Assembly: GCA_001600635.1 (NCBI GenBank)
Contig: BCKL01000025.1
Coordinates: 310,001 to 374,000, forward strand
Direction of reading: 5' to 3'
Origin: Leucosporidium creatinivorum
Taxonomy: Eukaryota; Basidiomycota; Microbotryomycetes; Leucosporidiales; Leucosporidiaceae
DNA length: 64,000 nucleotides
Below the pieces are notes generated by a model. That model saw only the letters and a list, made by a program, of their open reading frames with translations. It did no database searches and was not told the DNA's origin. Of the stretch, positions 24,096 through 61,117 are shown piece after piece. Made by a program: the position numbers and the translations under genes. The number at the start of each line of letters is the position of its first letter. Positions within the stretch are counted from its first letter, which is position 1.

Positions 24096-25115
24096 TCAGT
24101 ACTTGGCCAACGTCCAGAGCATCCAGCGCGGCTCCCCCTCTGCAAAGCTCGGCCTTGCTTCGGCTCCTTCCTGCGCCGAGCTGGTGTCGGGCTTCGTTTC
24201 GGTCGCTACTTGCTCCTCCGAGGCGGTCAAATGGCCCTCGGCTCCCTTCTCAGCGCAGATGGTACTCTTAGTGCGGTCGATGACGCGGAGGCGGTACTTC
24301 GAGACGAGGCGGGCGAAGCGGCGGTCGACGTTGGGGGGAAGAACGAGAGCTTGGGGGAAGACTTCGAGCACGTCGCTGCTCGTGATGCAGGGAGTATCGT
24401 GATACATGTCGTCGGAGTAGGCCGAGGGGAAGTCTTGCCTGTTCTGGCTGGTTGTGCGGAGCCGGAGAGCGATAGCCGAGAGCGCGTCGAAGTCCTCGTC
24501 GAAGCATTTCGGGTCCACGTGCCACATCTCGTCTGTCGCCAGGGCGAGTCCATGGTACGAGAGAAGCTTTCCGATTCTCTGTTGAAGCGCGACGGCTGAG
24601 AAAGAGAGCCGGCGCGGAGAATCGAGAGAACTCACGGTGAGCTGCTGAGCGCTACGCGCCCACGTGATGTTCGACTCGAAGACGCTGTACATACAGCCAT
24701 CGTCGTAAGGGCAATCTGCGGGTGGCCCCCAGCGACTCCAGATGTGCCCATCTTCTATTCGTTCTCGCTGCTCGGGCGAGAGGTTGCACACTGGGCAGTC
24801 GCAGTTGGCGTCCCCAGCGTCCCTCGCCTTGCAGAACCTACAGCGGAGCTTGTCGAGGGTCTTGAGCTCGGCCTTCCTGATCTCGACGCCGAGAATCTCA
24901 TCCCTTACGAGCTCCCACACCTCCTCGGGCAGCTCCCTCGCAGTCGTCTTCTCGTCTTGAGCTTCGATCTCAAGCTTTCCAGAGCGACGGCGATGGACGA
25001 TGAGGTCGATGGCGAGGATGGTAGATCTCGTAGCTTGGTGAGCTGTAGCCGCAAAGTTAAGCGAGGCTGTAGTGACCCAGAGCCCGTAGAAGAGCGTCGC
25101 GTTGCTGAAGCACAT
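24096..25115 (-). CDS. Dispersed gene family member A (F-box-like/Cys-rich protein), unknown function
   Basis: Two exons, 25115-24636 and 24578-24096, phase 0, 320 residues. N-terminus MCFSNATLFYGLWVTTASL then a basic HRRRSGKLE stretch. Next comes ARELPEEVWELVRDEILG, which looks like an F-box helix, and cysteine pairs CRFC...CDCPVC. Then ADCPYDDGC, a hydrophobic middle, PPNVDRRFARLVSKYRLRV, a variable Ser/Glu tail and EGEPRWMLWTLAKY at the end. Close relatives lie at 32170, 33759, 48474 and 60166 in this window. Zinc binding and protein-adaptor roles are inference only. Its 5' leader shares phrases with members C and D. Confidence 0.75.
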   Translation of the reverse strand: MCFSNATLFYGLWVTTASLNFAATAHQATRSTILAIDLIVHRRRSGKLEIEAQDEKTTARELPEEVWELVRDEILGVEIRKAELKTLDKLRCRFCKARDAGDANCDCPVCNLSPEQRERIEDGHIWSRWGPPADCPYDDGCMYSVFESNITWARSAQQLTVSSLDSPRRLSFSAVALQQRIGKLLSYHGLALATDEMWHVDPKCFDEDFDALSAIALRLRTTSQNRQDFPSAYSDDMYHDTPCITSSDVLEVFPQALVLPPNVDRRFARLVSKYRLRVIDRTKSTICAEKGAEGHLTASEEQVATETKPDTSSAQEGAEARPSFAEGEPRWMLWTLAKY

Positions 25116-25864
25116 CGGTGCAGACCTTGTCAAGCTGCTGGTAGCTTTGGTACAGCAGGCGAAGATTTCTGTAGCTTTCCACGAGTCGCCCGAGCTGTCG
25201 AGCAGCAAGCGAGCGATGAGGTTGGAAGGAGAAAGGTGCCGGCTCGCGAGCTGCGAAGGTCGTTCAGGCGTCGAGCCTCGGAAGACGGTGCAGCGCTCTT
25301 GGGAAGTAGCTGGTCAGCTCTGCAGCCTCAGAGCCCATTCCAAAGTTCCCCAGACCCTTCTACTACAGCTTCCAAGCCGGACCTCTGAAGTCAGTTTGAG
25401 GCGCGAACTGTTCGCCCGCGTCTCTCCCTTCGATTTTTACCTCGGCTTCTCACTGCAATCAGCAGCGACTACAGCGACTCGATCTCCACTTCAGGGTGAG
25501 TCCACAGACTGCTCTGCTGTAGAGCAGGAAGAGCTGGGCTCGCTGGGCAGCTCAAGGCAGCGCTGGGAGAATAACGCGCTCGCAAGAGCAGGTTGGAGAG
25601 CTACAGACGGCGTCGGAGCAGCGCTGGGGCTGACATAGCTTGCTAAGAGCTATCTGCGCTACTCTGCACCTCTCCAGACGCCCTACAGAGCGGACTGTCC
25701 CTGAGCAACAAGCTGTGGCGCGAACAGAACGCTGTACTGACTTTGGATCTCACTTCCCGCCTACCGCAGACCTACACCAACTCATAACGACCCCTCCACT
25801 CACTGTCACCTCTCTCCCAACCCGCCAGAGCACCTCCGCCTCTCGTTCGCCCTCCCCCGCCGCC
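25116..25864. promoter_or_regulatory. Divergent promoter region between member A and the SNF2 gene
   Basis: Head-to-head interval of about 750 bases. The left side (25116-25215) is the leader of member A and resembles that of C and D in short blocks. The right side leads to the Kozak-like GCCGCCATGG at 25859-25868. No third gene is convincing. Confidence 0.35.
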
Positions 25865-28800
25865 ATGGCCTACGGGTCGGCCACTGTTCCAGTGCGCACC
25901 AAGACCAAGGTCACGACCAAGAACAAAACCACGGTCAAGACTAGCACCACCGCCTCGGCCGTCGCTTCCACCTCCAAGCTCCCAGCCAAACGTCGCAAGA
26001 GCGCCGAGGAGGACTCGCCTCCGCCGAAGCGTCGCGAATCGATGCCCGATCCCAGCGACTCGGAGGACGACGATGATCCCGACTTTGGACGCGACGCCAA
26101 GGAGAAGACGCGCGAGGAGGTGGAGGATCTGATGGAGCAGGAGGAGAAGAAGCGCGCGAGGGAGGAGGTCAAGGCCGCGAAGGCCTTGGCCAAGGAGCGT
26201 GGCGAGGTGTATGTGGCGCCGCCTAAGCCGAAGGGGAAGAAGCCGGCAAGGAAGAGCAAGCCCAAGGAGGAGTCGAGCGACGAGCCGTTGCCCAAGGTTC
26301 GCCGACCTCCGACGAGGGCGACCAACGTCTTCGAGCCGCGTGCAGGAGACTCGACCGATTCGGACCAAGACAAGATGACTACCAAGTCAAGGTACGACCC
26401 CGAGGCGAGGAAGAGGGAGTTGGAGCAGCGCACGGGCTTCGATATCGGCGACGTCAAGAGTACCGACAAGGGCAAGGGGAAGGCCAAGGCTACGACTTGG
26501 CATAATGATTCGAGCGAGGAGGAAGGAGGAGGAGGAGGAGGAGGAGGAGAGGGCTACCTCAAGCAGCGCGGAGACCACCACTCGTATACCGGCAAGGGCA
26601 AACACAAGCGCCGCATCTACCCCGACACCGAGCAGGGCCGAGCTCAAGAGCTTGCGGAGCACAACAAGCGCCGCTGGGTCAACAAGAAGCACCCCGAGCG
26701 CATGAATGCCTATAGGAAGCGCTTGGAGGAGCTGAGCAACCCTCTCGTACAGCTTCTCAGTGCGTTTCTCTCTCCGCCGAGCCTCGGTCGTTCAAAAGCT
26801 GACGCTCCTGCCTCCACCAGACGTCGAGATTACTGTCGTCAACTCGGACAACGAGAGTATGGACGACGGAAGCGGCTACGAGGACAACATTCGCCTCCAG
26901 ACCGACTCGGACGACGACGAGAAGCCAGTCGCTTGTCAAGCTCCTTCGCGACCCAAGAAGCCCTTGGCGACGCCGCTGCTCGACAACGTTGACCGCAAGC
27001 TCAAGCGCAAAGCATCCGAGGAGGACGTCAAGCCCATCATTAAGGAGGAAGAGGAGGACGTCAAGCCTTTCATCAAGCGCGAGGAGCAGGACGTCAAGCC
27101 CGTCATCATGCCGGTCCGTCTCGCCTTGCTGCAGCTCGCCTCTCTCCGTTGACCCCTTCTTCCCGCTCGCAGATGCTCACCCTGTCCGACGAGGAGTCCG
27201 AGCCGGCGACCGAGCACGAGGATGACGAGGAGGACGAATCGCCTACCAACCGCCTCAGCAACCGCCTCTCCCTCGTCGACATCAAGCCCGTCATCCAGCC
27301 GAGCCCTCCTTCCGTCGCTTCGACTTCCAAGATCCCTGCTACTGCTCAGGATGTCAACGTACGTCCGCTATAGCTCTTGGCGTCTTCAGAGGCTGACTTC
27401 TCGTCTCGCGCAGATGATCTCGCTCGACGACTCGGACGAGGAGCCCGCAACGGAGGACGACGAGTCACCTCTCCCCCCTCCTATCGCCTCCTCCTCCTCG
27501 CAGAGTAACAAGGGAGCCCTTGACGCTATCTCCTCGCTGGACGACTCGGAGCCGGAGCCCGAGACTGAGGTCGAGGAAGAGTCGGCCGAGATGGACGTCG
27601 ATGACGAGGGCATGGATCCCATTACGAGGGGACTCGTAGATAGTTCGAGGAAGGCTGCGGAGAAGCAGAGGCAGGAGGAGAGGGCGAGGAGGAAGAAGGA
27701 GGATGAGGAGCGCATCCGGATCAAGATTGAGGAGACGGCCAAGGTGAGCCGACCATTCGAGCTTGCGAGAGCCTGAGCTGACACAAACTCGATATCACAG
27801 GGAGCCGACAGCGACGTCGAGGACGCTCAAATGGAGGACGAGCCCAGCTACTCTCAGGCTGTCGAGCTGGCCGTCTCGCAGGCGGCTTCGCAGGTGAACT
27901 TCGCCTTCCGCTCGCACGCCGAGTCCATCGCTGACTTCTCGAAAACAGACCATCCCGCCCGAAGGCATCCCCGTTCTCAAGGGTCGCCCCAAGTTCCCTA
28001 TTCGCACTCAGGAGCAGCTCACGACCGGCCGTCACAAGCTTTCGAGCATGCACGAGATCCCTGCGCCCATCAATCGCTTCCTCCGTCCTTACCAGCGCGA
28101 TGGAACCGACTTCCTCTATCATCAGTTCGCCAACAATATGGGAGGAGGTGAGTGCCCCTCGTCGCCTCTGACCGAGGACGATGAGCTGACCTTGCCGCCC
28201 CTCGCAGTTCTCGGCGACGACATGGGACTCGGCAAGACGATCCAGGTCATCGCCTTCCTCAGCGCCGTCATGAGTGAGCTTCTCAGCCTCTACTTCTCAC
28301 CGAATGCTCGCTGATGTCGCTCTTCATCGCTCGCAGACAAGACGGGCAAGAGGGCCGACGCCGGCGCTCGTAGCCGCGCCATGAGGGAGATTCCCAAAGG
28401 GGCGGATCTCCCTGCGCCTTCCGAGCACGGCTTGACCTGTCTCATCATCTGCCCCGCTTCGGTCGTGCACAACTGGGAGCGCGAGTTTCAGACTGTGAGT
28501 CCTTGCCGAGCACCCTCATCTCGTTTCGTCGCTGACCCTCGCTCGCGGCTGATAGTGGAGCTACATCGATACTGTCGTCTATGGAGGTCCTCACAAGAAG
28601 GAGAACCTTCGCATGTTCTCCATGGGGCACAAGGACGTCGGTGAGTTGCGCTTCGCCTCCGCCGAGCGAAGCCGTAAGCTGACATCGCTTCGTCGCAGTC
28701 ATCGCCAGCTTCGAGGCCGTGCGCAGCAACATCGACCGTCTTTGCAAGGAGGACTTCTCTATCATCGTCGTCGACGAGGCGCACCGCCTAAAGACCCACA

Positions 28801-31772
28801 AGGCCGAGGTGACGAAGGCGATCCACCGGTTCGACACGCGCCTGCGCTACGGCTTGACGGGAACGGCTGTGCAGAACAGGCTTGGAGAGCTTTGGTCGAT
28901 CCTCAACTGGGCAGTGCCGAATCAGGTCGGCAACTCGAAGCAATGGTGAGTCATGGGCGACGAGGCGGAACCAGAAGGCTCGGCGCTGACACACGCGTCG
29001 ACTCGCAGGGACGACCTCGTTACCCATCCGATCAAGTTCACGCAGAAGGCGGATGCTACCGAGGAGCAACTCGCTCTCGGCCGTCGTCGTACAATTGCGC
29101 TCGCCGGTTCGCTTCTCCCTCGCTTCTGGATCCGTCGGTAGATCGTCTTGCTTCTCCTTCGCTTCTCGAGGAAACAGACTGACGCTACTGTGCACCTACA
29201 GCACGAAGGAGAGCGTCAAGCTTCAGCTTCCTCGCAAGATCGACAACATCGTCCTCTGCCCCCTCACCTACACGCAGAAGGAGGTCTACAGGAACATCAT
29301 GCAGCTCGAAGAGGTTCAGATTCTTCTCACCGCCGACGATCCTTGCCCTTGCGGCTCCGTCGACGATCGAGGACAGCCGTTCAAGCAGGGCAAGTGCTGC
29401 CAGCAGGGATGGGCCAAACTCATCTTCAAGGTGCGTCGACTCCTCACTTCGCTTCTCATCTCGACGATTGCTGACTGTCGCTTCTCATAGTACATGGACC
29501 TCTTCCGCAAGATCTCCAACCACCTCGCCCTCATCTACCCCGGTGAGTCTCGTCGCTATCTCGTTCGGCTTGAGCTGACCTCCCGCGCTCCTTAACAGAC
29601 AAGGAGGACAAGAAGCTCAACCCCAACAAGTACCAGCAGGTAGGTCGACCTCACTCCGTCTCCGACCGATAGCATCGCTGACCCATCTTGTACAGGACCT
29701 CGCCTGGGTGCAAGCTGCCTTCCCCGACGATTGGCAGAACCGAAGGCTCGGCGCGCTGCAGAACGACTACGACCCCGAGCTTTGCGGCAAGTGGAATATC
29801 CTCTGCGAGCTGCTCGACGTCTGGAAGGCGGCTGGCGACAAGGTCTTGCTCTTCACGAACTCGCTCAAGAGTGAGTTCACTTTCGGCATCGCTCCTCTTC
29901 GAGCTCTTGCTGATGCTCCTCGCCACCGCAGTCCTCGACCTCCTCGCGACTCGCTTTGACGCTAAAGACGACTACAGCTACAGGCGCCTGGACGGAAGTG
30001 TGCCGAACGACGCGCGTGAGTGATCTCGCTCGGCTTGGGGACGGCAGCCGCTGATATGTCTCGACTCGCAGGCATGACGCTGGTCGACGAATTCAACAGC
30101 CCCGAGGGCAAAGTCGACGTCTTCCTCATTTCTACGCGTGCTGGAGGAGTCGGCCTCAACCTGACTGCTGCCAACCGAGTGAGTTGGGTTTCGTCGCGCT
30201 TGCCTCGAGAGCGAGCTAACACGTCCTCACACCTCCAGGTCGTCATCTTTGACCCCAACTGGAACCCGAGTCACGATTTGCAAGCCATGGATCGCTCGTG
30301 CGTTTCGTCTCGCGTCCTCACTATCCTAGTCGACCTGACCGAGCTCTCCTTCTCGCACAGCTACCGCTTCGGTCAGACTCGCGAGGTCCACGTCTACCGC
30401 TTGGTCGGCGCCGGAACGTGAGCTCCGTCGATTTATTTATCGTGCAGACCAGCAGCTGACACTTGTCTTCGTACAGCATCGAGGAGCTCATCATCAACCG
30501 TCAGCAAGTCAAGCGCGCCCTCGCCAACATGGCCTACGACGCCAACGCAGAACGTCGTCTCTACACTGGTGTCGAGGGAGAGAAGGAGCACAAGGGAGAG
30601 CTCTACGGCGTCAAGGTGTGTCGGATGACACAGGTGGATCTGCTCGGCGCAGGCCAGCTGACTCTCGTCGCTCTCGCAGAACATCTTCAAGTACACCGAG
30701 CACTTTTCTCTCACCGAGAAGGCGATCAAGGATGTGCGTCGATCTCTTGTTGCCGCAGATGAGAGCATGCTGACCTCTCGACGCCTTCGCAGTGCGCTCT
30801 CGCCGAAGCCGAATACGAGGACTACGACGAAGACGAGAACGCCGATGGCTCGCAGCGCATCAAGGAGATCGTGAGCGACTCGTTTCTATGCGCAGAGCCC
30901 GAGCTGACCTCCCCTCTCTCGAACAGGACGAGAATGAGGTCGTTCAGGGCTTGGTCGATATTGGCAAGCAAAAGCAGCTCTCCGCTGCCGAGCGCAGGAA
31001 GAAGGAAGAGCAGGAGGCGATCAAGAGGATTCTCACCGGCGCCTATACACTCGAGAGCAATGCGACGCTCGGCAACAGCAAGGTCGAGGAGGAGCGCGCT
31101 CGCCGCGCCGTCCAGGTGAGCTTCTACTTCTCTCCCTCGCTCTCGCGCATCACGCTGATTCGCCTTGCCCTTCTCAGGGTCAAATTCTCGGCGGAGCCAA
31201 GCCCCGCACCAGCCGCGAGGACTCGCCTGCGACCAAGAGGGACTCGAAGCCCGCCGTCGACGTCAAGCCCGCCTCGAAGGCGCCGAAGACGGGTGGCGAC
31301 TGGGACCCAACGGCGAGGCGCAGCAAGAAGAGGAAAGTGCTCGTTCAGCAAACCGTCGTTTCCAAGTCCAAGCCCAAGAGGGAGACCAAGGTCAAGCCCG
31401 AGCCCGTCGTCAAAGCCGAGCCGGCTGAGGTCAAGCCCAAGGTCGTTCGCGTCAAGGCCGAGCCGCCTTCCTCCCCTCGTCAGTCGTCCACCTCGACGTC
31501 CTCGTCGGAGTCCTTCGCCATGCTCGCCGATATGAAGAAGCGTCTCGGTATCTCGTCCAGCGTGACCCTCAAGCAGATCATCAATGCCAGGTGAGCTCCA
31601 CTTCGCCGCCTCATACTCGCTGAAAGCTGACTCTGGCTTGACCTACAGCATGCCGGATCGTCGTGCTTGGAGCGTGTTCCTGCAGAGCTTGGCCTTCCTG
31701 GACGAGAAGGGCCAGAAGCAGGAGATGGAGAGGCTCTGCTCGGCGTACAAGAACAAGAGCAGGAGGGGATGA
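25865..31772 (+). CDS. SNF2-family DNA translocase, ERCC6L2-like
   Basis: ATP-dependent translocase of the RAD26/ERCC6L2 branch, linked in other eukaryotes to DNA repair and transcription stress. Start ATG sits in GCCGCCATGG. The first about 600 residues are charged and disordered with Lys-rich and acidic blocks. The helicase core follows: GDDMGLGKTIQVIAFLS (motif I), IICPASVVHNWEREF, VVDEAHRLKTHKAEV (DEAH), LTGTAVQNRLGELWSIL, then DDPCPCGS...QGKCCQQGW, a cysteine cluster typical of ERCC6L2. The C-lobe carries KVLLFTNSLKILDLL, ISTRAGGVGLNLTAANRV, FDPNWNPSHDLQAMDR and RFGQTREVHVYRL. A Lys/Glu-rich tail ends with a folded-looking LADMKKRLGISSSVTLKQII and AWSVFLQSLAFL segment. About 20 introns, nearly all with GCTGAC branch sites. 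Repeated acidic/hydrophobic exons near 27173-27500 resemble SUMO-interaction motifs. Confidence 0.85.
26520..26550 (+). repeat. GGA trinucleotide run
   Basis: An uninterrupted run of GGA/GGAG units inside exon 1 of the SNF2 gene encodes a polyglycine stretch of 8-9 residues after SEEE. It is a simple-sequence tract and may vary in length between strains. Confidence 0.8.
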
Positions 31773-32169
31773 GGTGATGTAGGGCTTGCTTGATAGTTTC
31801 CGCTTCCTTTCTGTGTTGATGTTTGATTTACTCGTAACTCGCTTTTCGCTTTTCCATCAGCCATGTCCGGCGGTCACGAGAGGAGAGCGGCTCGGCGAAG
31901 AAGGGAGTGAGTGGGAACGCGAGGGAGCGGGAGCGGGAGCGGGAAGGGTGGCTTGCCCAAAGTCAGAACGCTCACAGGTCTCGGGCTCTGCAGGCATCGC
32001 GAAGGAAGTCGGAGCGCATCAACGGTACTCTCAGAGCCAACCTTCCAAGCTCGTCTGCTTTCGCGCTCTCTCTCTATTCGACCAGCCTCTCTCGCCGTCC
32101 GCTTCCGCTCAAATCCCTCACCTGCAACCGAAGCACACCTACCCCGACACACTCCTACTCCCGTGCAAC
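31773..32169 (+). promoter_or_regulatory. Intergenic region before member B
   Basis: 3' flank of the SNF2 gene and promoter/leader of family member B. A short GAGCGG-type repeat (GGGAGCGGGAGCGGGAGCGG) lies near 31923-31945. The last 130 bases are pyrimidine-rich. No gene seen. Confidence 0.35.
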
Positions 32170-33195
32170 ATGCGCCCCTGGAGCTCGGCAGGCCTCTTCT
32201 ACGGCGTTTGGGCGACGATTGCCTCTCTCGTCTTTGCGGCAACAGCCCATGTCGAGTGGGGAGGAGCTCTGCGCGCTCTCAATATGATACATCTCCGTCG
32301 GCGTCATGGGAAGCTCTCGGTCAAGCACTCGAGGAGGAGCAAGGGAGCCATCGAGCGAGTTCCGGAGGAGGTTTGGCGCATGATCAGGGGGACGGTGTTG
32401 CAGGAAGTGTGGGGTACGGAAAGGGTGATGATGGATAGGATGAGGTGCGAGGAGTGCACCAAGAAGGAGTGGGATTTGGCGAGGAAGGACAGCGAGGAGG
32501 CTGGGGAGGGGCCCGCCGAGCGGGACGACCACCGAGTGCAGCCCAGGTTCGAGTGGGATCATTGGAGTCGCCCGAGCTGCAAAGACTGCCTCAAGGGGGT
32601 GCATAAGGAGAATCTTGGGTCACCCTCGGGTCGCGAGGTAAGTTCCAACCTCCTTGCCGAGGTGTGAAAGCTCCGAGCTCCCTCTCCCCTACGCGAGAGC
32701 TGATCCTCCGTGCTTCTACACCACCAGCGCATCAAGCGTCTACTCTGTGATTGTGGTCTCAAATATCTTCTCTATGAGGCGGTGGAGCTTGGCGAGCAAA
32801 GCTGGGACAAGTTCTTCGCCATCACCCTCGAGGAGCGACATATCGGCGAGACCCCTCCAGCTTGGGAAAGAACTGCCGAGGGCGATTGGGACGAAGAAAA
32901 TCAAGGCGGTACTGCTATTGTCAAGATGGCGCAGGAAGATTTCCACCTCCCAGCCGACGCCGACCATCGCTTCGCTCGCCTCGTCGCCGACTTTGGGCTC
33001 CGCTTGGAGGACCACTACCATCCCAAACCCAAGATCCCTCCCCCGGTCGCTAGCCCAAAACTGGATGATCGCTCAGCTCGAAACTTCCTGTTGGAGTTTT
33101 GTGCGCCGCAGGGGAGGCCGGAGCAGAAGGAGGTGATCACTTCTCGGATCGTCAAGCCGTGTTGGTCGCTGCGGACTCATTGCGGGCAACAGTAG
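32170..33195 (+). CDS. Dispersed gene family member B, unknown function
   Basis: Two exons, 32170-32637 and 32728-33195, each 468 nt, joined phase 0; 311 residues. N-terminus MRPWSSAGLFYGVWATIASL, then RVPEEVWRMIRGTVLQEVWG (F-box-like helix), CEECTKKEW, and SCKDC as the second cysteine pair. The second exon has PADADHRFARLVADFGLRL and a C-terminus IVKPCWSLRTHCGQQ. It is a diverged relative of A, C and D, closer to E. The intron uses a normal GTAAGT donor at the site shared by the family. It lies in tandem, about 560 bases ahead of the decayed member C. Confidence 0.75.
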
Positions 33196-33758
33196 GGTGT
33201 CAGGAGTATGTTTAGTGGCTTATACAGCTTCCTCGTCTACCGCGAGGTGCAAAAAAGCCCTCATCTTTGCCTTTTCGTTCTTGCTCGGCGCTCGGCGTTG
33301 GCTTCTGACCCGGCGAGCTGCCTTTCAATGCCTTTGCGAGGTCGTTTGGGAGGCGTCCATCCTTATAGGCTAGGTGTGAACTGAGGTCCCGATTGACCAT
33401 GACCTTCGAATGCGTGTGAGCGAAGCAGCGAAAGGGAAGGCGACAGCTCTTCGCCGAAGCTCGGTTACTGCACCTTACAGAGAGCTGCAGGCAAGTCATG
33501 CAGCGTCAATAGTACTAGAGACACCTCTCGGTCTGTTTTTGATCTTCTCAGCTCCCTTCACCTCACTTGCGCACCTCCTCTTCTCTCTTTCATCTTGCGC
33601 TCGAACCTGGTCCGCCTCTCCTGCCACATCCTCGTCTCGCCTCGCCGCTCGTCTACAGCTCCCTGAAGGACCTCAAAGCAGCAGCTACACCTTCAGCACT
33701 CTATCTACAAGCTCAACCTCAGCCCCTCCCTTCGCCCTCCTTCGCTCGCCCTCTCGAA
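33196..33758 (+). promoter_or_regulatory. Intergenic region and leader of member C
   Basis: Between members B and C. The last about 160 bases (33600-33758) match the 5' leader of member D at 48475-48640 (minus), for example GGACCTCAAAGCAGCAG and CGCCCTCTCGAAATGTGCTGG-like sequence across the start codon. This marks a duplicated upstream region. Confidence 0.55.
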
Positions 33759-34773
33759 ATGTGCTGGAGCAACGCGACGCTCTTCTATGGCCTCTGGGTC
33801 ACTACAGCGTCGCTCAACTTTGCCGCCACCGCACACAAAGCTACTCGACACACCTTCCTCGCTATCGACCTCATCGTGCATCGCCGTCGCTCTGGAAAGC
33901 TCGAGATCACGGGACAGGACGAGACATCACGACGGCGAGGGAGCTGCCCGAGGAGGTGTGGGAGATGATCAGGGAAGAGCTGCTCGAGAGGGCGGTGAGG
34001 AAGGCCGAGCTCGATAAGCTGGACGAGCTACGCTGTGACTGGTGCACCGCTAGGGACGCTGGACAGCACAAGTGCTTCTGCCCCGAGTGCACCTTGCAGC
34101 CCGCTCAATTGGAAGACGAGCACTACTGGAGCCACTGGGGACGACCGGACTGCCCCGTTGGTGCAGGATGCAATTCTCGCATCGCCAGGTCGGGCTTCAC
34201 CTGGCAGCGTAGCGCAGAGCAAATCTCGGCGAGTCCCGACCAGTCCTCAAGCCGTTGTCTGCTTCCAGCTGACCCAATGACACTCTACAGAGCATCTCCA
34301 ACCTCCTCTCGGAGTACTCTCTCCCCCTCGCTAACGTCGAGATGTGGCACGAGAAGCCTACCAACCGCACCTTGGACTTCGAAGCTCTCTCGGCGATCGC
34401 TCTGCCGCTCCACTCGACTCACCAGCTCAGGCAGGACTTCGCAGCGCCTGAAGCGAAAGCTCTACATACGTATCGAGGAGATCATGCGGCCAATTCCGTC
34501 TTCGATCTCTCCCCTCAAGCTCTCGCGCCCCCCGCCGATGCCGACCGACGCTTCTTCTGCCTCATCTACCTTCGTGTCGTCGACCGCTCCAAGGTCAGCA
34601 TCATCGCAGTCGATGAATCCACAGCCTCGCCCATCGCTTTGCCTCAGCTCGACCCCACCGACCCTACGCCGAACGTTGGAGTGCCCTTGGCGCAAGAGCC
34701 AGTTCAATTTGGATAACTCTTCGCCGAAGGAGAGCCGCGCTGGATGCTGTGGAGCTTAGCCGAGTCTTGTTGA
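33759..34773 (+). pseudogene. Dispersed gene family member C, decaying copy
   Basis: Starts MCWSNATLFYGLWVTTASL, nearly identical to members A and D. One base is missing between GQDE and TTARELPEEVWEM near 33925, so the frame shifts. Downstream the family sequence continues in the new frame: RCDWCTARDAGQHKCFCPEC, RPDCPVGAGC and GFTWQRSAEQIS. The intron at the shared site has a GC donor (GCGAGT). The second exon has PADADRRFFCLIYLRV with two codons lost. A stop at about 34714 precedes an otherwise intact EGEPRWMLWSLAESC end (stop near 34773). The copy is recent but broken, unless these are sequence errors. Confidence 0.7.
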
Positions 34774-47448: not shown

Positions 47449-48474
47449 TCAAAAGCAAGGCTCACACAAGCTCCAGAGCATCCAGCGCGGCTCAGCCTTG
47501 GCGAAGTGCTTCGGCGTTTCCTTCTTGGCTTCGGCTTGCCTGTTCGAGCTGTTGTCGGCCGTCTTCTCTTCCTTGCTGCCCGTCGTAGGAGGGAGAGGAG
47601 AGGCGTCGGAGAGGCGAGGGTTGCTGGGAGCGAGGGCTGAGCCCTTGGTGCGGTCGCGAACGTCCAGGCGATAGCTCGAGACGAGGCGTCGGAAGCGGGT
47701 GTTGGCGTCGGCGGGGACAATGAGAGCTTCGGGGGTGAAGTTGAAGACAGTGTTGGCAGTTCCGAACTCGTGGTGGCCTTCGGCGCGGCTAGCAGGGAAG
47801 CCAGACTCGGTTGAGGCGAGAGGAAGGGCGATGGCCATCAGGCTGTCGAAGTCGAAGTAGCCGTCCTCGCCGTCTCGCCTCCACATCTGATCCCCAGCGA
47901 GGCAAAGCTGGTGATCCTTGAGGAGACTGTTGATGTCCTGCTCGAGCGTAATGTGGTCAGCAGAGGGCTTTCGCTATCGCCAGCCGAGGGCAAGAGGCCA
48001 TCCACTGACCGCCAGCTGCTGTAAGGTACGTTCACGCAAGACGTCGGACTCTGCGACGTTCTCGAAGCAGCCATAGTCGCATGGAGGCGAACCCCAGCGA
48101 TTCCACGCGTGCTTGGAAACCGGCTCGGGGCCTTTGCTGTGGCAGGGGCACCATCCATCGACGCCCGAGTTCTCGTAGTCCTGCTCCACGCACCAATCGC
48201 AACGGAAACGCGAGAGCCTGTCCTGCTCTGCCTTTTCGACAGCGCCACCGAGCAACTCGTCCTTGACCATCTCCCACACCTCCTCAGGCAGCTCCCTGGC
48301 GGTCGTCTTCTCATCCTGTCCCTTGATCTCGAGCTTGCCAGAGCGACGGCGGTGTACGAGGAGATCGATAGCGAGGATAGTAGGTCGGGTAGCTTTATAA
48401 GCTGGAGCGGCAAAGTCGAGCGAGGCTGTAGTGACCCAGAGGCCATAGAAGAGCGTCGCGTTGCTCCAGCACAT
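47449..48474 (-). CDS. Dispersed gene family member D, unknown function
   Basis: Two exons, 48474-48010 and 47937-47449, phase 0, 317 residues; intact. N-terminus MCWSNATLFYGLWVTTASL is nearly the same as that of A and C. It continues with HRRRSGKLEIKGQDEKTT, ARELPEEVWEMVKDELLG, RCDWCVEQD...WCPCH and PPCDYGC. The second exon has PADANTRFRRLVSSYRLDV and KAEPRWMLWSLCEPCF. Its intron donor is GTCAGT. The leader upstream of the ATG matches that of member C for about 150 bases. It is the closest intact relative of the decayed C copy. Confidence 0.78.
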
Positions 48475-51494: not shown

Positions 51495-51733
51495 GCTGTG
51501 TCTTATTTTCGAAGACTGAAGAACAGTATTGAAGGGGGGAAGGAGGGGAATCGGAGGGAGGTGAAAGGGTCAGTGAGCTGTTCAACGAGATCCCGGCTCG
51601 ACTCGTTGTTTCCGTCCTCCTTCCCTCCAGCAGCACCATTTATTCAACAACGGGGTCGCGAGGGCTCAGATACCGTTGTGTTGTATCGTCACGGCTTGTA
51701 CGGCGCCAAGCGACAAGATAAGGCAGTGTGAAT
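51495..51733 (-). repeat. Partial copy of an inverted-repeat element (partner of 57337-57780)
   Basis: Reverse complement of the left half of the element at 57337-57780. The end AGATAAGGCAGTGTGAAT at about 51716-51733 corresponds to its left terminal repeat. Similarity includes CAACACAACGGTATCTGAG-type sequence and a block with GATCCCGGCTCGACTCGTT, and fades near 51495. The right terminal repeat was not found. It lies in the 3' flank of the BAR-SH3 gene. Confidence 0.7.
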
Positions 51734-51850: not shown

Positions 51851-53599
51851 TCAAATGAACAGCTCCTTGACCTCCATCAGCACATTCTCCTCCCCACCGT
51901 TCGCTCTACTACTCCTCGCCTTCTCCGCCGCACTGGTCCCAGCCCTCGCCTTCCTCAGCTCGGTCCTCCTTTTCCTCGCAATGTCCTTCTTCTCGCGAGC
52001 GGTAGGACCTCGACGAGGTTTCGGCGGAGGGTGAGCCTTCTTGGACGATCTCGTCTCGCGCGTTTCGGTTTCTTCCTCCTCTTCATCGGTGTGCTCCTCG
52101 ACGTCGTCGGTTGTGGTAGGAGAGGGAGCATCGGAGGTAGCGGGGCTCTGTCGACGGGAGCGAACCTTGCGACTCTGGTGGGAGTCGTCGCCCGAGACGG
52201 AGGACATTGAGGCGGAGCGAGCGCGCTGACGAGGGCTGCTGCTGTGAGGGATGCTGAGGTGGTCGGAGGAGGGTGGTGGTGGTGGTGAAGTCGCCGGAGA
52301 GGGTGGACCTGAGGGAGGGAGGGCGATGCTCTGGGCGAGCAGGGAGGTGGAAGTCGTCGCGGGCTTCTTGGGCCGACCGCGAATTCGGCGAAGGGGAGGT
52401 GGTGGCTCGTCGGGAGTGGAAGGGATGGAGGTAGTATCGTCGTCGTCCAGAGGGGTGAGAGAAGGCTATCGGGAATCTCGAGTCAGCTTTAGTGAGGAGC
52501 GATACGAGTGAAGACTGCTCACAGGCTCGACGTTGGGAAGGCCGGAGTGAGGACCAGCGAGACGGCGGATGGAGCTGTAGTGCTCCCAGCTGTGGTACCT
52601 GTGGTTTCAAAAGCGAGTGAGTGGTAAGTCAAGAAGCCAAAGCCTTGCGAGTATCGTACACGATGTAGAGGGTGCCGGTCGCCCTCGGTCCTTGACTCGT
52701 CTGCTTGCCCTTGCCCTTCTCCGCCTTGAGCTTGGCATGGCGCTTCTTCAGCCTGAGCTCTCTAGGCGTGAGGTTCTCTTGCAGCGGTTCCTCCTCGGTC
52801 TGCTCCTCGTCTTGTTGGTCGGGCGAGACGACTCCCTCCATCGGCTCGGGGGTGATCACGTAGGTCAAGCCGGGCTGAACAACCTTGATGGAGCGTTGGT
52901 AGAGGTTTGCGAATGCTGAGAGTTCAATGTTGGTGCCGTAGGTCCCTGCAATAGCGCATAAGCCAAGTCAGCAACGAAGGCCGGCGCTGCGAAGGCAACT
53001 CGACTGACCGAGGCGCCTCATGCTGCCGACGTGACCATCGTATCCTCCTGGGACGGAATCGCTGTCCACGAAAAGACGATACCGATCGGCGTGGGAGGAC
53101 AAGTGCTGGCAGACCTGCGAGAGAGAGGCTAGGTCAGCCTTCGAAGCGACAAACATGCGAGAGGCGGGGGCCTCACTTCGTGTCGAATCGAAGCGTGGCC
53201 ACCGTCGCTGCCAGTGAGCTGGTCCGAAAGCGCTCTGATACAGTCGCGAAAGGTCAGCGTGGCCCTCGGTCGTCCAGCGCCGAAGCAAGTCTTACCGGAA
53301 GAGACAGTTGCCATCCTTCGTGTTTGCGAGGGGTTAGCAAGGGGTCCTCTAGTACCAGGGAAGCCTGCAAGCTTACGCCGAGGGTATTTGCAGCGTACAA
53401 GCCTGCGCTGGAGAGCTGAGCCTTCAGCAAGCGCTCCTCCTCGAGAGGATCCTCCGAGTTGATGAGCTGGGCGCGAGCGTCAGCGGGCAAATCCCTGTAG
53501 CGAGTTCAAGCGCGACGGGCTTACCTTGGGCTTGTTACTACGAGTCTTGGAACGCGCTCTCGGTCGCGCAAAGTCGTTCTTGCCGCCTTTGCGAGCCAT
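51851..53599 (-). CDS. OTU-domain deubiquitinase
   Basis: Cysteine protease predicted to cleave ubiquitin chains; cytosolic or nuclear. From ATG at 53599 the exons begin 53599-53525, 53466-53377, 53315-53296, then about 53250 leftward, ending at 51851. N-terminus MARKGGKNDFARPRARSKTR is very basic, as in OTUD3-like proteins. Catalytic motif DGNCLFR is encoded almost alone by the 20-nt exon 3. RALSDQLTGSDGGHASIRHE, HLSSHADRYRLFVD, GTYGTNIELSAFANLY and the histidine motif WEHYSSIRRL complete the OTU fold. The C-terminal half is disordered: PPPPLRRIRGRPKKPA (AT-hook-like), Ser-rich, then an acidic EEEEETETRE stretch and a Lys/Arg-rich end. Its 3' end is about 120 bases from the repeat at 51733. 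Confidence 0.88.
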
Positions 53600-54012
53600 G
53601 AAAGGCGAGGAGCGTTTGGTCTCGCGCTGGCACGAGACGAGATCAAAGGGCGGGCGAGTTGGAGGTGAGAGGTGATATCACAAGTCGTGAGAGCAGGAGC
53701 AGATGTAGCTTGTTGGCAGGCGAGGGAGACGAGAAAAGGACGAGGTGAGGTTGAAGTGCAGAACCAAGCTCGGAGGCGGCTCGAGCTTGACGTCCTTAGC
53801 GTGAGCGATCCTGTTCACTTCGCTACGACTCACAGCAGCCAGCAAGGACTGATCGTGTAGTGTACAGAATACTCTCTATAATGAGAGCGAGAACCGAATA
53901 CGGAAACTAAGAAAGCCCCTTGCCGACCCCTCCGCCGAGCTTCGCACGGCTCCCCTCTGCCTGCTCTACTCTCTCCTCCAATGCCTCGCCGAGGTAGCTC
54001 GACAGCGCCATA
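53600..54012. other. Intergenic region upstream of the OTU gene
   Basis: Promoter of the OTU gene and 3' flank of the membrane-protein gene (both minus). Nothing else recognised. Confidence 0.3.
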
Positions 54013-54819
54013 TTACACCCACCTCGCCGCCTGCCTTGCTCCACCGGGCGCTACCGTAGGCTCGCTCGCTCCCCCTCCCCCGGCGGTCGCCTGCGCCGAG
54101 CCCGCCGACCGCGATACAGAGATTCCTACGTCGCTGGTGCGAGTGCTGCCCGAGTCGGTACGAGAAACAGCGGGTAGAACTGTCGACTGGGAGACTGGGG
54201 GCATCCTGGTCTCATCGGCGAAGTTGTTCGTCTTGCCCTTCTTGATGCCGAGTCCAGCGCCGAGTCCTACGCCGAGGGCGATGAGCAGGAACAGACCACC
54301 CAAGAAGACTGTGGGAAGTAGCAAAGAGGTCAGTCTGTAGCTCTTCACTGTTGAGCAAGACCAGACGCACGAAGAGTCTTGGGTTTCTGCCAGAACTTGA
54401 GCTGCTTCCTCGGTCGGCGACGAGCTCCGCCAGCTCGCTTCGAAGTCCTAGGCTTATCGTCCGACACACGAGTCCTTCCATGGCTGTCGATGGCTCCCGA
54501 CGGACGAGATTGGTACGGCTGAGAGCTAGCGGGCAGCACTGTCGATTTCTCCTCCTCCCCAGCAGGGGCAGGAGCAGGCGCCGTCCTCTCGGCGAAGGCT
54601 TCTGGATGAGCGTATCCTTCCTGTACAGCGTGCGGAGCTCCGTTCAGCTCCTGCTCAGCTCGAGAAATCCCTCCGAATCAACAAAGGACGCACCTGCCGG
54701 TCCTCCTGGGTCAGCTCCCCTCCTGTTTGCTGGAGGAAGCGGTCGTTCTCCTGCGAGGAGGGCATCGTGCCGACGTGCGAGTGCCCTTGCACGCTGCTGC
54801 CGTGGTTGACGGTCGACAT
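54013..54819 (-). CDS. Single-pass membrane protein, unknown function
   Basis: Three exons (54819-54694, about 54620-54371, about 54310-54013) join in phase to about 220 residues. The N-terminal half is hydrophilic: MSTVNHGSSVQGHSHVG, Gln/Glu-rich, then Pro/Ala-rich. It is followed by a strongly basic block (RRRPRKQLKFWQKPKTL). One transmembrane helix follows (FLGGLFLLIALGVGLGAGLG), then KKGK and a Ser/Thr/Gly-rich tail. The positive charges just before the helix favour a cytosolic N-terminus and an outside or lumenal tail. No family recognised. Confidence 0.6.
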
Positions 54820-55190
54820 TCGCTCGGTGAGGTCGAAGGCGAAAAGCAAAGTCCAAGGATGTTCGTGAGGGGACGTGCGAGACGGAAAGGAGCCGAGCCG
54901 AGGCGATGCCATTCTTTTCGGTCGAGAATAGCTACAGAAACGGAATCCGAGAGCTGTGAAGATACACTTGATGCTTCTGTACCACATCAGACTCTCTCAG
55001 CCGAGTCCCCCTAAGTCGCTTGGGCCCCTCCGAGTCGGCGCCTCCCGCTCACTCGCTGCTCTTGCTCCTGCCTCTCGCTCGTCTTGCTGCTTGCTTGCTT
55101 CTCTCTTCGTGCTTCGCGTAACAAGTTGTACGAGCTTGTTGCACTCTCAACACAGCTACGCCCGCTGACCATCTCCCTACAGCTCTCGAG
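54820..55190. promoter_or_regulatory. Divergent promoter region
   Basis: Head-to-head interval of about 370 bases between the membrane protein and the RNase III-fold gene. GCTGACCATCTCCCTACAG just before ATG 55191 looks like the end of a 5' UTR intron. Confidence 0.4.
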
Positions 55191-56702
55191 ATGCTCCTAC
55201 GTCGGCTTCTCTATTCCGCTCGCTCCTCGCCCTCTCACGCTCGCCTCAGCACCGGTCTACTCAAGCCGCTCGCTTTAAAACCTCTTCACTCGTCGACTGC
55301 TCTCCCCGCCAAGAAGAAGGCAGCCACCCTCGAACCCTCAGGCTCGCCGACCGAGCAGAGGCCTCTCGACTGGAAGGGGCTACAAGAGTTTGTCGAGGAG
55401 CAGAGGAGACTCAGACTCGCCCAATCCGCTCCTCCTCAAGATCTCAAAGCCTCCGAGACCGAATGGCGCTACTTGGACAAGGTCGCCGCTGCACTTCGCC
55501 TGCCCGTCCCTACCGAGCTCCCTCCTCTCCCTCCCGCTCTCGACAAGGAGGTGTTCCGCCGAGGAGGTATCGCTTCACCTAAAGTTACTCACTATGAGGT
55601 CCTCGAGTGGATCGGCGACCGAGAGCTCAACAGCGTCGCAGCTCAAGTCCTCGTCGTCCTCGCTCCGAACGGCTCCTCCTCAAAGCAGCTCAAATGGCAT
55701 AACGCAGGGTAAGTCTAGAAAACACTGATGCAGCAGGTCTCAGAGCTGATGCTTGATGACCCTACAGAATCATGAAGCTCATCACTGGCCGGACTGCTGC
55801 AGTTTTCGCCGAGGAGCTCGGCATGCGCCGGCGCCTCATGATCAAGGGGACTATCGGTCAAGACACCTTGGCGGATCGTTTCGAGTCCTACGTCGGTGCC
55901 CTCTGGTCTCACCGAGGAAGTGAGGCGGTTCTCGAACTCCTGGCTCCACTCTTCGGTCGCGAGATGCTCAAGATTGCGCTGGACGACGTCAAGGAGCCTG
56001 AGGTCGCCGAGGCCAAGCAGATCGTCACGCCTGCACCAGCTCCCACCACATCAGAGCTCGCACAAGAAGCCACGGATCGTGCTTTCATCACAGCCTTGAG
56101 GGAGCTAGACGAGGCGCTGGCCACTCCGGGTGAGTTGAAATCCACTGAGCCCACGAACGGCGTGCTGACATTCTCATCCAGTGCCCCTGGCCTACGCTAC
56201 GCTTGCGGAGGCCAAGGAGCGCTTTCTAGACGATCTTGCTACCCAAGGTTGGGAACGCTGCTTCATTCGAGGCAAGCGCGTGATGGTGCTGGACCCGCCG
56301 AAGCGCCGAGGAGCTCGAGTGACCTTCTCATCGGGTCAAGACGGTCTCGCGCTACTTCTTCGTCAAGCGGCTTCGGTCGGCCTTCTCACGATTCAGGAGT
56401 GAGTTCGACGAACGAGAGCGAGAAGCGCATCTGGTGCTGACCCTTCCTTCCCCAGCCTTCCTCCTCTCGCGACCAAGAAACAGCGCAAGGCGGCCGAGGC
56501 GCAGAAGAAGCAGACGGTCGTCAAAGTCGCAGCCCCCAAGCTTTCCAAGGCCAAAGATAAGGCGCGCAAGAAGGCTGAGATCAAGCTCGCTGCCAAGGCC
56601 AGCAAGATCAAGAGCTCGGTGCCGTCGCCGAAGCTGGAGTCAAAGAAGCCTAAGCTGTCCATTCGAGGCGAGATTGCCAAGAAGGAGCCTTCGGGGGAGT
56701 AG
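55191..56702 (+). CDS. Mitochondrial RNase III-fold protein (mL44-like or active RNase III)
   Basis: Four exons: 55191-55708, 55768-56129, 56182-56398 and 56456-56702, about 447 residues. The start MLLRRLLYSARSSPSHARL is Arg-rich and acid-free, a mitochondrial presequence. The RNase III domain shows HYEVLEWIGDRELNSVAA (signature ERLEFLGDxxL) and TLADRFESYVGALW (DxxE motif). A segment AKERFLDDLATQGWERCFIR follows, then a Lys-rich tail (KKQRKAAEAQKKQ, SKAKDKARKKAEIK). The mitochondrial ribosomal protein mL44 has this fold. Here the acidic residues at all four catalytic positions appear to be kept, so an active nuclease cannot be excluded. No clear dsRBD. Confidence 0.75.
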
Positions 56703-57336
56703 AAGGTGAGTATTCTCGCTTCCTAGCTTTGGGGACGCGCTGACCCTCCTCGCCTTCCCAGCACATCTCGGCGGAGCTCTTCCCTCCCTCCTCCTCCTCA
56801 CCTGCACCCACCGCCGACGCCTCGCTCGCTCTCCCACAATCTCGATGCTAATCTCCTCGTAACCCCCATGCCCCTCCAATACCATATGCCTACGTCGTCC
56901 CGACTCGAAACGTACGAGAACGAAAGCGAGCGAGTAAGCGCCGAGCTGAGGGGAGAGGAGGACAAGCTGGATTTGTTGTGCTCACGCCCAGTACGCTCAG
57001 AACACCTCCAAAAGTAATTTCCTGCAGCGAAGTACACCATGAGAAGATAGGAGGCCCAGGTGTCCGAGCTCAGAAATCCATCGACCTCCGCTGGCTGGCT
57101 TCTCTCACTCTTCTCTTCCTCCTCCTCACCGCTTTCCTCGTCTTTTTCTCGACTCAACTCCTCGCTGTACATCTTCAACATGACCATCTTTTAATCACTC
57201 TGCTCGCCGACATCCCCATCGTGCAAACTTTCTTTGTTCGTCTTTTCCTCCTTTGCGCCTTCTCCTTCTCGTCGGAACCCCAGCAGCAACCACCCAGCAA
57301 CGCCTAGTAGGCCGGGGGCAGTGATAGACAAAATTT
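56703..57336. other. Region after the RNase III gene with uncertain small ORFs
   Basis: A donor-like GTGAGT at 56707 just after the stop suggests a 3' UTR intron. A minus-strand frame near 56848-57187 contains a hydrophobic segment (ASYLLMVYFAAGNYFW) and possible tiny exons. A plus-strand frame (56978-57307) has two hydrophobic stretches. Neither could be confirmed; one may be a small membrane protein gene. Confidence 0.25.
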
Positions 57337-57780
57337 ATTCACACTGCCTTATCTTGTCGGTTGGCGCCGTACAAGCCGTGACGATACAACACAACGGTAT
57401 CTGAGCCCCCGCGACCCCGTTGTTGAATAAATGGTGCTGCTGGAGGGAAGGAGGACGGAAATAACGAGTCGAGCCGGGATCTCGTTGAACAGCTCGCTGA
57501 CCCTTTCCACCTTCCTCCAATTCCCCTCCTTCACCTTCGAAAAACAGATCCGAACTCATCGCCGAACCCTTCTTGTTCTGTCTTCGACGGTCACTACAGT
57601 CGACGTGCTCCTTCTCATTATTATGAAGAACAACGCAACAAGACTGCATTCGTAAGCTCCCAGCTCTCCTACCCCTCATCATCGCCATCGGGAACCAGCA
57701 GCGCGGAAGCAGGGACGATGCTCCATCATCTTTACTTCTTTCTCCGTCGTAGCATGCCCTTAGATAAGGCAGTGCCGAAT
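57337..57780 (+). mobile_element. Short inverted-repeat element, MITE-like
   Basis: About 440 bases bounded by inverted ends: CACTGCCTTATCT at 57342-57354 and its exact reverse complement AGATAAGGCAGTG at 57762-57774. The symmetry extends outward imperfectly (ATTCA at the left, CCGAAT at the right). The left half is present in reverse complement at 51495-51733. An internal frame starting MVLLEGRRTE is seen in both copies, but no transposase motif. No clear target-site duplication was found. It is best read as a small non-autonomous DNA element of unknown superfamily. Confidence 0.6.
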
Positions 57781-58791
57781 ACTATCTTATTACAAAATGA
57801 ACCTTTCTGAGCGTACACGCTGCTGGATCCCCGGGCGAGCAACTGAGGCAGGCAGAGGAGAAGAGCGAGCTGACCCTGCCTTCCTCCTCCCCGATAGATG
57901 ACCTACATCGGCGCTTCTTCACTTCGTTACTGTCGAGGCTGCTCTTTGCCTCGCTGTCCCAACGAAGGACCCGCGTCGTCGTCGTCGAGTCATGGTAAGC
58001 TCTCCCTTCATCCCCCCCCCTCCCCTCCTTCGGCGGAGCTCTCGCGCTTGATGAAAAACATCAATATCGACAACTAGCTATCCCAAAGGGAAGCGATGTG
58101 GTTTCAAAAAATGTTTTAATTAGACACTGATGCGACTCAACCGCTGGAGCAAGGGAGTGAGACGACCGAACGAAGGCGCTGACCTCGACCTTGCCCTCAC
58201 AGTCACACAGAGTTCCTCGGCTGTACTCGACGGCTAAGGCTTCGAGCTAGTCAGCAGGCGACTCGCCTTCGAACACTTCACTTCGTCCAGCTTCCGAGCT
58301 GCTCGCTCTGGCCTTGTCCGAGCTCGCTTGAAGCATGGAAGCTGCGAGGGCTAGGGGGACAGACGTACCTCGTAGCTAGCTAACCTTGCGTTCTCATATG
58401 AATCTGTCAATTCACCTCTCTCCTACACACCACTCATCGCAATGAGAGACACTGCGAGAAGCAAAAGGCGATTCGGCGAAGAGAAATCGAGAGCGTCGGC
58501 GAAGACTTGTAGACTTGGCTGCAGGCGAAGACACTGTGGAAACTGGCGGCAAGGTGCTGTGGCGTTGTTCTGTGGCCGAAGCTTCTCGCGAGGTCTCGCG
58601 AAGTACCACCTCGAAACGTCTCTTGGGCGCGCCGCTCTTCATGGCCGGCTTTGCTCTCGCCGTCTCTCTGCTTGCTCTTCAACTCTCGTGTCCTCGAACC
58701 TACCAGTCCATCTCGAATACTTTTCAGGCAATCGCAGCAAATCCAAGACGCCGATACCTATCTCTGCTTGCCTACAGCGCGCTCTAAAAAG
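57781..58791 (+). promoter_or_regulatory. Intergenic region before the methyltransferase
   Basis: About 1 kb without a supported gene. It contains a C-run (CCCCCCCC near 58013) and an AT-rich patch near 58100-58125. The last 150 bases would be the methyltransferase leader. A frame at 58442-58813 has no resemblance to a family. Confidence 0.3.
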
Positions 58792-59833
58792 ATGGATCTG
58801 CTGCCAGAAGTGAGTTTCTCGGTGAATGGCGCGACGCTGAGCCCGCTGATGCGTTCTGCACCTCTCAAAAGCACAACTCTGCCTATGGTACGCAAGAGTA
58901 CTGGGACGAGCGCTACGCAAGAGAGGCTCCCGACGCGACGTTCGACTGGCTCAAGAAGTACGAGGACATGAAGCCCTACATCCACCAATTTGTGCCCGAC
59001 CGCAGCAAACGGATCCTACACCTCGGCTGTGGCAACTCGACACTACCTATCGACATGTACGACGACGGCTACGAGCAGCAGGCTAACTTGGACTACTCGC
59101 CGGTGGTGATTGAGAAACAGCAGGCGCTTCATGGAGAGCTCAGGCCGAAGATGACCTGTAGGTGACTGGCTCCAGCTTCGGAGACTGTGTGCTGACAATC
59201 TCGGCGCTGACAGGGTGCACGGGAGACATTCGCAAGCTGCCTTTCGAGGACGGGTCGTTGGACGTGTGCATCGACAAGGGTGAGTCCTCCGCCATATCTC
59301 TGTTCAGCATCTCGGCTTCCCTCTCTTCAAGGTCAAGACGAGCGCAGAACGACTCAGTGCAGGAGGCTAACCATCTCCCTCCCTCCCTCATCCGCTCCTT
59401 CTTGTTATTTCTACACACTCTCGCTGTTTCCCTATTTGCTACCACCACAAAGGCACCATGGATGCCATGATGACGCAAGGAGGAGATCCATGGGTGCGTT
59501 CTCGTCTCCTTGATTCGCCGCCGAGCTCGTTCGCTCACTCTCGGCGTTGCAGAACCCACCGGCCGAGATCATGCAGGCGTGCAAGGAAGAGGTCGACGAG
59601 GTGTGTAGGGTGCTGGCTCCCGGTGGCGTCTTTCTGTATCTGTGAGTCGCTGCTCTCCACCGGTTCAAGGTGCAGCGAGCTGACCCGCCCGTCGCAGAAC
59701 ATGGGGTCAACCGCATTTCAGGAAACGACACCTTGTGCGAGAAGGGTGGACGATTCAGGTGGAGGAGTTGGGTGGAGAGTCTTCCTTCTCGTACTTCCTG
59801 TACATCCTCCGGCGGACGAACGAATGCAAGTAG
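58792..59833 (+). CDS. Class I methyltransferase, EEF1AKMT4-like
   Basis: SAM-dependent enzyme, probably a protein lysine methyltransferase acting on elongation factor eEF1A or a similar target. Six exons: 58792-58809 (18 nt, MDLLPE), 58872-59157, 59214-59279, 59453-59493, 59553-59641 and 59698-59833; 211 residues. Motifs: QEYWDERYAREAPDATFDW, ILHLGCGNSTLP (SAM motif I), NLDYSPVVIEKQ (post-I), CTGDIRKLPFEDGSLDVCID, KGTMDAMM, EVCRVLAPGGVFLYLTW and GQPHFRKRHL. The order and spacing match the small METTL-type group that includes EEF1AKMT4. Substrate is inference. Intact. Confidence 0.88.
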
Positions 59834-60165
59834 CCGCCATCACTATGCCTCTCCATCGCCGAAGTCTGTCGCCGAGGTAGCTAAGCTCGCTGATTATCGC
59901 TGTAGCATCCCACCAAGCGGCACAGCTTGCTCTACTCTCAATCGCACTCGCTGCTGCTACGCGCTCAAAGGACGAGTCGAGTTGGCCTCTCAGAGCCCCA
60001 GCGCGATCCGAAGCGACCCGCCTCCCTTCGCGCTGAGTTTCTCTCCTTTCTTTCTTCTCCCTCGTCTCGGGTCGTCACTCCGCTTAGCCTCCCGCCGTCG
60101 ACTCTATCACCACTGCACCGACTCACAGGCGCCGAGTCCTCGCTTCCCTCTCGACCGTGCTCGTG
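59834..60165 (+). promoter_or_regulatory. Intergenic region before member E
   Basis: Promoter/leader of family member E, C- and T-rich from about 60020. Unlike the leaders of C and D, no shared blocks were seen. Confidence 0.35.
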
Positions 60166-61117
60166 ATGCCTTGGGGTGAAGCTGGCGTCTTCTACGGTGT
60201 GTGGGCGAAAGCCGACTCGCTCAGCTTTTGCGCAGAAGCCACACTTACTATCCGAGGTGCTCTACAAGCCGTCGACCTCATCATCCTGCGTCGTCAGCTC
60301 AACGCCCTGCACGTCGGCGCCGAAGGGCGGAACTCTGCGTTGGCAAGAGTCCCGGAAGATGTGTGGCGCCTAGTGAGGACATGCTTGCTTGAGGAGGTGT
60401 GTGCGATTGAGCAGAGGGCTCTGAGCGAGTTCAGATGCAAGACCTGTGAGGAGGAAGGTTGGGACTGGGCGCGAAGAGCGAGGGATACGAAGGTGATGGT
60501 GGAGGGGACCGAGGTCACGCTCAAGCCCGACTATGAATGGGTGTCTTGGGGTAAACCCGAGTGCAGGCACTGCGGGAGCGGCGAGTCGTTCTTCAGATCC
60601 GACAAGAACATCCAGGCAAGTCCGATCTCGGCGCATTGGCTCGGTTAGCTTCGTGGGCTTTTGGCTGATGCTTATCTCCACACAGAGGATCACCGCCTTA
60701 CTGCAACAGTACGGACTCGACCTCGTCTTCCACGCCGAGAACCGATTCGAAGACGAGGAATATTCGGAGTGGGATCAATTCTTCATGCCAGTCGGCGTTC
60801 TCAACCACCTCGGCAGGAAGCAGAGTTCTATCTATCCCTGTATCCAGACGTGTAGTGGGGAATATATTGGCCCCACTGAAGTCTCTTCCTTCCCCGCCGA
60901 ACTCCTTCAGCTCCCCTCCGACGCCGACGACCGCTTCGCCCGCCTCCTTGCCGACACTGAACTCCCAACAGGCAGCGGTGCAGCTATACCAATGAGGATA
61001 GAGCTCTTCAACTTTAGTCGCTACCTTCAGCCCAGCTCGACGCCACGTCGTAAGGTCACGAACGACGCGGCGAAGCCTTGCTGGATGATGTACGGGTCTT
61101 GCGGGACTGATGGGTAA
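60166..61117 (+). CDS. Dispersed gene family member E, unknown function
   Basis: Two exons, 60166-60615 and 60686-61117, phase 0, 293 residues; intact. N-terminus MPWGEAGVFYGVWAKADSL, then RVPEDVWRLVRTCLLEEVC (F-box-like helix), CKTCEEEGWDWARRA and PECRHCGSG. Second exon: PSDADDRFARLLADTEL and NDAAKPCWMMYGSCG. The donor of its intron is GC (CAG|GCAAGT), followed by GCTGATGC and CACACAG; a GT donor is not available nearby in phase. It is the most diverged member with B. An upstream GTG CTC GTG frame is open, but ATG at 60166 fits the family start. Confidence 0.72.

Follow-up and report, generated by a model that had tools for sequence, protein, structure and literature searches.

An orphan gene family of about 29 copies on the probable pheromone/receptor mating-type contig of Leucosporidium creatinivorum

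The window analysed here is a stretch of 64,000 nucleotides (C25:310001-374000) on contig C25 of the Leucosporidium creatinivorum genome assembly, which comprises 27.7 Mb in 63 contigs. The question raised by this locus is what is represented by a set of look-alike genes without a recognised counterpart, lying on both strands among unrelated neighbours, and how far this set extends beyond the window. A sequence-only reading of the window had described five such genes, with a number of motifs and a phase-0 intron in common. These genes, together with one neighbour that does not belong to the family, are located in the window as follows:

16465..20363 (plus strand): five open frames with domains of the second-largest subunit of RNA polymerase; housekeeping neighbour outside the family
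24096..25115 (minus strand): copy A, 320 aa; exon 1 24636-25115, exon 2 24096-24578 (splice model)
24579-24635: intron of copy A, 57 nt, GTGAGT..CAG, phase 0
32170..33195 (plus strand): copy B, 311 aa, of a diverged subfamily; exon 1 32170-32637, exon 2 32728-33195
32638-32727: intron of copy B, 90 nt, phase 0
33759..34773 (plus strand): copy C, pseudogene
47449..48474 (minus strand): copy D, 317 aa; exon 1 48010-48474, exon 2 47449-47937
47938-48009: intron of copy D, 72 nt, phase 0
60166..61117 (plus strand): copy E, 293 aa, grouping with B in a diverged subfamily; exon 1 60166-60615, exon 2 60686-61117
60616-60685: intron of copy E, 70 nt, GC-AG, phase 0

Related genes were found at all five positions and, as judged by sequence similarity, their kinship is far beyond chance, with the exon-1 matches of copy A against the whole genome having E=1.9e-51 for copy D, 5.2e-19 for copy B and 6.2e-14 for copy E. 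Copies A, B, D and E encode full-length proteins and carry a single phase-0 intron at the same site in all four, but this common design does not extend to copy C, which is broken. The reading frame of copy C shifts near 33930, an in-frame TAA (34714-34716) occurs upstream of the conserved C-terminus and its intron, positioned at 34229-34290 by reading of the sequence, would require a GC donor. Given these three defects it is not a working gene, and copy C is a pseudogene. With regard to the motifs thought to be shared, FYGxW, PE(E/D)VW, CxxC, WxxW and the second cysteine pair hold, but the "PADADxRFARLV" motif is uneven, being PPNVDRRFARLV in copy A and PADANTRFRRLV in copy D.

The other neighbours of these copies in the window are ordinary genes as well and include a sugar transporter, a dihydrouridine synthase, L-PSP and diphthamide-synthase domains, a pyridine-nucleotide oxidoreductase, and SH3 and DUF6581 proteins, as well as an SNF2-type helicase, for which one of two domain matches fell below the cut-off, and a zinc-finger protein (match below the cut-off). 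The domain scan covered 29 of 51 selected window ORFs, 12 of these 29 being without a match, and no tRNA or Rfam match was found in the window. Two further repeats were observed there. The first is an inverted repeat (51563-51733 and 57337-57507) with 171 nt arms that are 98% complementary and 5.6 kb apart, perhaps the terminal inverted repeats of a transposon. The second is a direct repeat (1818-2035 and 7883-8100) of 218 nt with 83% identity, occurring near the sugar transporter.

To count the family, four protein queries (copies A, 388043, 180306 and 93312) were searched against the genome, with all first-look candidates scored in each. Copy A gave 54 exon matches, 53 of them on C25 and one on C12, and all 44 matches of copy 388043 occurred on C25. 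With copy 180306, 49 of 51 matches were on C25, the exceptions being the C12 fragment and a match on C3 (E=0.4); with copy 93312, it was 54 of 56, the exceptions being the C12 fragment and a match on C9 (E=0.84). Three of the four queries detected the C12 fragment, at E values from 4e-4 to 0.06. Merging the exon matches of copy A by eye gave 29 places, and the family is thus not one of five members, as first described, but has approximately 29 copies, which occupy the 40-389 kb interval of the 440 kb contig C25, plus the one fragment on C12. Its description as a dispersed and expanding family was borne out. A control with sugar transporters gave at least 14 matches on eight contigs, with none on C25 among the matches listed; it is a weak control, as nine of 189 candidates were scored and the window's own transporter was missed.

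Using splice models, it was possible to identify 21 of the 29 copies as intact, each with one phase-0 intron of 52-90 nt at the same site and with a GT donor in all but one, which has GC. Copy 93312 was scored as intact despite the absence of its cysteine region. The remaining eight copies (40725, 72241, 98016, 246904, 276354, 304434, copy C, and 382975) are broken or uncertain, and three of them (98016, 246904, and 276354) are without a canonical frame-keeping splice and could be misjudged. These eight were excluded from the protein alignment and from the dN/dS, fourfold-site, Mantel and tree counts. The piece on C12 has an N-terminal and a C-terminal stretch of the family within one short ORF, and near it are 53 bp resembling the 5′ flank of one C25 subgroup. 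Given this flank-like stretch and the N- and C-terminal stretches that were kept, the fragment may have been duplicated away from C25.

Contig C25 itself carries genes related to mating. The only matches to the pheromone receptor STE3 (PF02076) found in the genome lie at C25:435951-436551 (all five candidates scored), with the likely STE3 gene running from C25:435530 on. The single match of ribosomal L18a (C25:433811-433936) precedes the probable start of STE3 by approximately 1.6 kb, and ASF1 is the downstream neighbour of STE3. Near the contig end there is a pheromone-precursor-like ORF of 64 aa (C25:439922-440116) with two NPAPPGSYLFCTIA repeats, the second of which is at the ORF end and is taken by us to be a CaaX end, like that of a prenylated pheromone precursor. 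On the basis of the only STE3 matches, the adjacent L18a and this ORF, C25 is very likely the pheromone/receptor (P/R) mating-type contig. The family is physically linked to STE3 on the same 440 kb contig, its nearest copy being approximately 46 kb away. The one homeodomain match in the genome is on C24.

Most of the intact copies encode proteins of approximately 290-335 aa with a constant N-terminal part of approximately 80 aa, a hypervariable middle (CxxC ... WxxW ... CxxC) and a semi-conserved C-terminal part. In the alignment of the 21 intact members, G11, W13, L19, A25, L48, W67, L166, and W312 (copy A numbering) are invariant, and both cysteine pairs as well as W126 and W129 are nearly so. 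The paired cysteines of the earlier description were confirmed, C92, C135, and C141 each being kept in 20 and C95 in 19 of the 21 members; copy 93312 is without all four. The four cysteines are a putative zinc site. The absence of a recognised counterpart was also upheld, as Pfam scans of seven members and of all 21 intact members gave no match better than E=0.11, and searches of PDB by sequence with copy D and with the 21-member profile gave chance-level matches only (best E 0.24). No relative was found in viral contigs scanned with the family alignment, and the portion of the literature covered by our searches, which included the family motif strings, gave no description of such a family. 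Two AlphaFold models from window sequences had mean pLDDT values of 35.4 and 45.7, too poor for fold comparison.

In the tree of the 21 intact members, copies B, E and 388043 are split from the other 18 (100/100); the branch leading to copy E is long, and the tree leaves 8 of its 18 inner branches unresolved. Among the 25 closest pairs, dN/dS was 0.25-0.60 in 16 and 0.61-0.84 in nine, all below 1, these values being rough as dS is 0.7-1.1. Signs of segmental duplication are found along the contig. Three head-to-head pairs (40.7/42.1, 70.9/72.2, and 87.2/88.4 kb) have flanks in common, with the same two subgroups supplying one member to every pair; two of the six genes (40725 and 72241) are broken. 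A convergent pair at 207.5/208.7 kb recurs inverted at 246.9/248.1 kb. Divergence shows only a weak relation to genomic distance (Mantel rho 0.15, 0.18, and 0.14, reached by 94, 26, and 118 of 2000 permutations, respectively).

Divergence is unevenly distributed along the genes. Profiles of nucleotide identity, drawn for seven groups of related copies, show approximately 0.63-0.92 over the first ~250 nt in five groups, 0.57-0.68 in 93312/98016 and an uneven 0.49-0.76 in the B type, which is without a clearly conserved N-terminal part. Over the next ~350 nt identity is 0.37-0.54 in two of these five groups and 0.40-0.67 in the other three, the range for all groups but those two being 0.40-0.68. 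Toward the 3′ end two groups recover clearly, 207546/248071 to 0.83-0.91 and the 46439 group to as much as 0.81. Conservation also reaches into the 5′ flank, extending for hundreds of bases in four of the seven groups and for less than 200 bases in a fifth, with none in the profiles of 207546/248071 and the B type. At the protein level, mean identity is 0.51 in the N-terminal part, 0.25 in the middle and 0.29 in the C-terminal part. In 10 disjoint closest pairs, the fourfold sites that differ number 115/309 in the N-terminal part, 77/125 in the middle and 133/310 in the C-terminal part, pooled sites being non-independent and the divergence of the middle being inflated by poor alignment there. 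Fourfold divergence of the N-terminal part is below that of the middle in 10 of 10 pairs and below that of the C-terminal part in six of 10, and the pooled N- and C-terminal counts do not differ (p=0.16). The N- and C-terminal parts share their nearest neighbour in 11 of the 21 copies.

One subgroup has a 5′ cassette of 1.5 kb which recurs on C25 only, apart from the 53 bp at the C12 fragment, a distribution that argues against a genome-wide transposon as the carrier of this subgroup. Stretches of the same cassette were also observed at C25:191172-192168, where the four protein queries found no family gene; this is perhaps a solo 5′ cassette.

Uneven identity is also seen in an inverted duplication of 3.5 kb (C25:89947-93454 and 98802-102323; 88.6% identical overall), with copies 93312 and 98016 at its inner ends. 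Its arms share 1,657 identical bases, including a MED7-like coding sequence. Flanking this tract, identity falls to 0.48-0.75 in the family genes on one side and down to 0.56-0.92 on the other. Arm-to-arm conversion would be the simplest account, as a recent duplication would leave every part alike, and gene conversion would be the likely source of the tract, with an assembly error as the alternative.

Taking these observations together, we lean toward a lineage-specific birth-and-death family of approximately 29 single-intron genes that has been kept and reshuffled on the P/R mating-type contig. What is directly observed is the common layout, the number of copies, their near-complete restriction to C25, the decay of some of them and their mosaic divergence. 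Copies would have spread along C25 by segmental duplication, singly, as head-to-head pairs or within inverted blocks. Nonallelic gene conversion, which we infer as the cause of the mosaic from the identity profiles, would homogenise the N-termini and, in several subgroups, the promoters too, with the middle left to diverge. In the one haplotype analysed, low recombination near the mating-type genes may let copies pile up and remain linked; the link to mating may be incidental, as local duplication alone could yield the confinement. The proteins are presumably intracellular, and a function as Cys4 binding proteins can be suggested tentatively. More speculatively, the constant part would be a shared interaction domain connecting to a shared machine, and the variable Cys4 middle a changing recognition surface for changing partners.

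A real but lesser possibility is that of an ordinary orphan family with a general intracellular role, which arose by local duplication on one chromosome and lies near the mating genes by coincidence. The segmental duplication visible on C25, dN/dS below 1 in all 25 closest pairs and the many housekeeping genes among the neighbours are all consistent with this. However, it sits less well with approximately 29 copies across 350 kb and a single fragment elsewhere, when matches to the F-box-like domain PF12937 are scattered over many contigs (at least 149, with 150 of 330 candidates scored), and it leaves the mosaic divergence unexplained.

The birth-and-death family on the mating-type contig could also be given a more specific role, as a mating-type-linked, previously undescribed family for conflict or nonself recognition in mating or meiosis (a driver/suppressor or compatibility repertoire), in which a constant N-terminus is joined to a hypervariable Cys4 recognition module and diversity is fed by gene conversion on one haplotype. 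We regard this as doubtful. The copies may have a wtf-like role, either selfish or in recognition. That the copies form a selfish family working like the wtf drivers of Schizosaccharomyces, with linked killer or antidote genes, segment exchange and frequent decay, is an analogy we consider unlikely. Enrichment on one contig, signs of conversion into promoters and broken copies would agree with the wtf pattern in the portion of PMC6526906 used here, but the genes of this family have two exons against the five or six given there for most wtf genes, and the repeat search of the window found nothing repeated beside the copies except the copies and their own flanks. Very unlikely are F-box adaptors in which the F-box has degenerated and the substrate part binds zinc. 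The earlier term "F-box-like" could not be sustained: (L/V)PE(E/D)VW is followed by a predicted helix in a low-confidence AlphaFold model, and this LPxEVW helix start is the sole resemblance to PF12937, but a search of the 21 members for Pfam F-box models gave no match at E<=0.5, and C25 has no PF12937 match among the at least 149 listed (150 of 330 candidates scored).

To our knowledge, few large gene families sit almost wholly on one chromosome. A 29-member orphan family on one contig with a pheromone receptor would make it possible to test directly whether conflict or recognition genes gather on the mating-type chromosomes of fungi, and its likely gene-conversion tracts form a natural series for study.

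The closest parallel for the contig is the P/R region of red yeasts (PMC2916851, PMC3236058), which, in the portions of these articles used here, resembles C25 in having STE3 near L18a and a repeat-bearing pheromone-precursor-like ORF. STE3.A1 of red yeasts is described as flanked by RibL18ae and RibL6/RNAPOL (PMC3236058), and agreement with C25 is partial, as L18a fits but the ribosomal L6 match is on C9 and the downstream neighbour of STE3 is ASF1. The fungus would be red-yeast-like in this respect, with an arrangement that is perhaps MAT A1. The term "gene family" does not occur in the main text of either article as available to us.

For the family itself, the nearest known pattern is that of the wtf genes of S. 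pombe, which are likened to it by behaviour and not by sequence. As described in the same portion of PMC6526906, the wtf family is enriched on chromosome 3 and its gene conversion extends to promoters, and this one-chromosome family proved to include meiotic drivers. Both families have many copies enriched on one chromosome and diverge fast, and the mosaic identity and 1,657-base identical tract found here would agree with the conversion reported there. They differ in that all 21 intact models have one intron, in contrast to four or five in wtf, and in that the contig of the present family carries mating-type genes.
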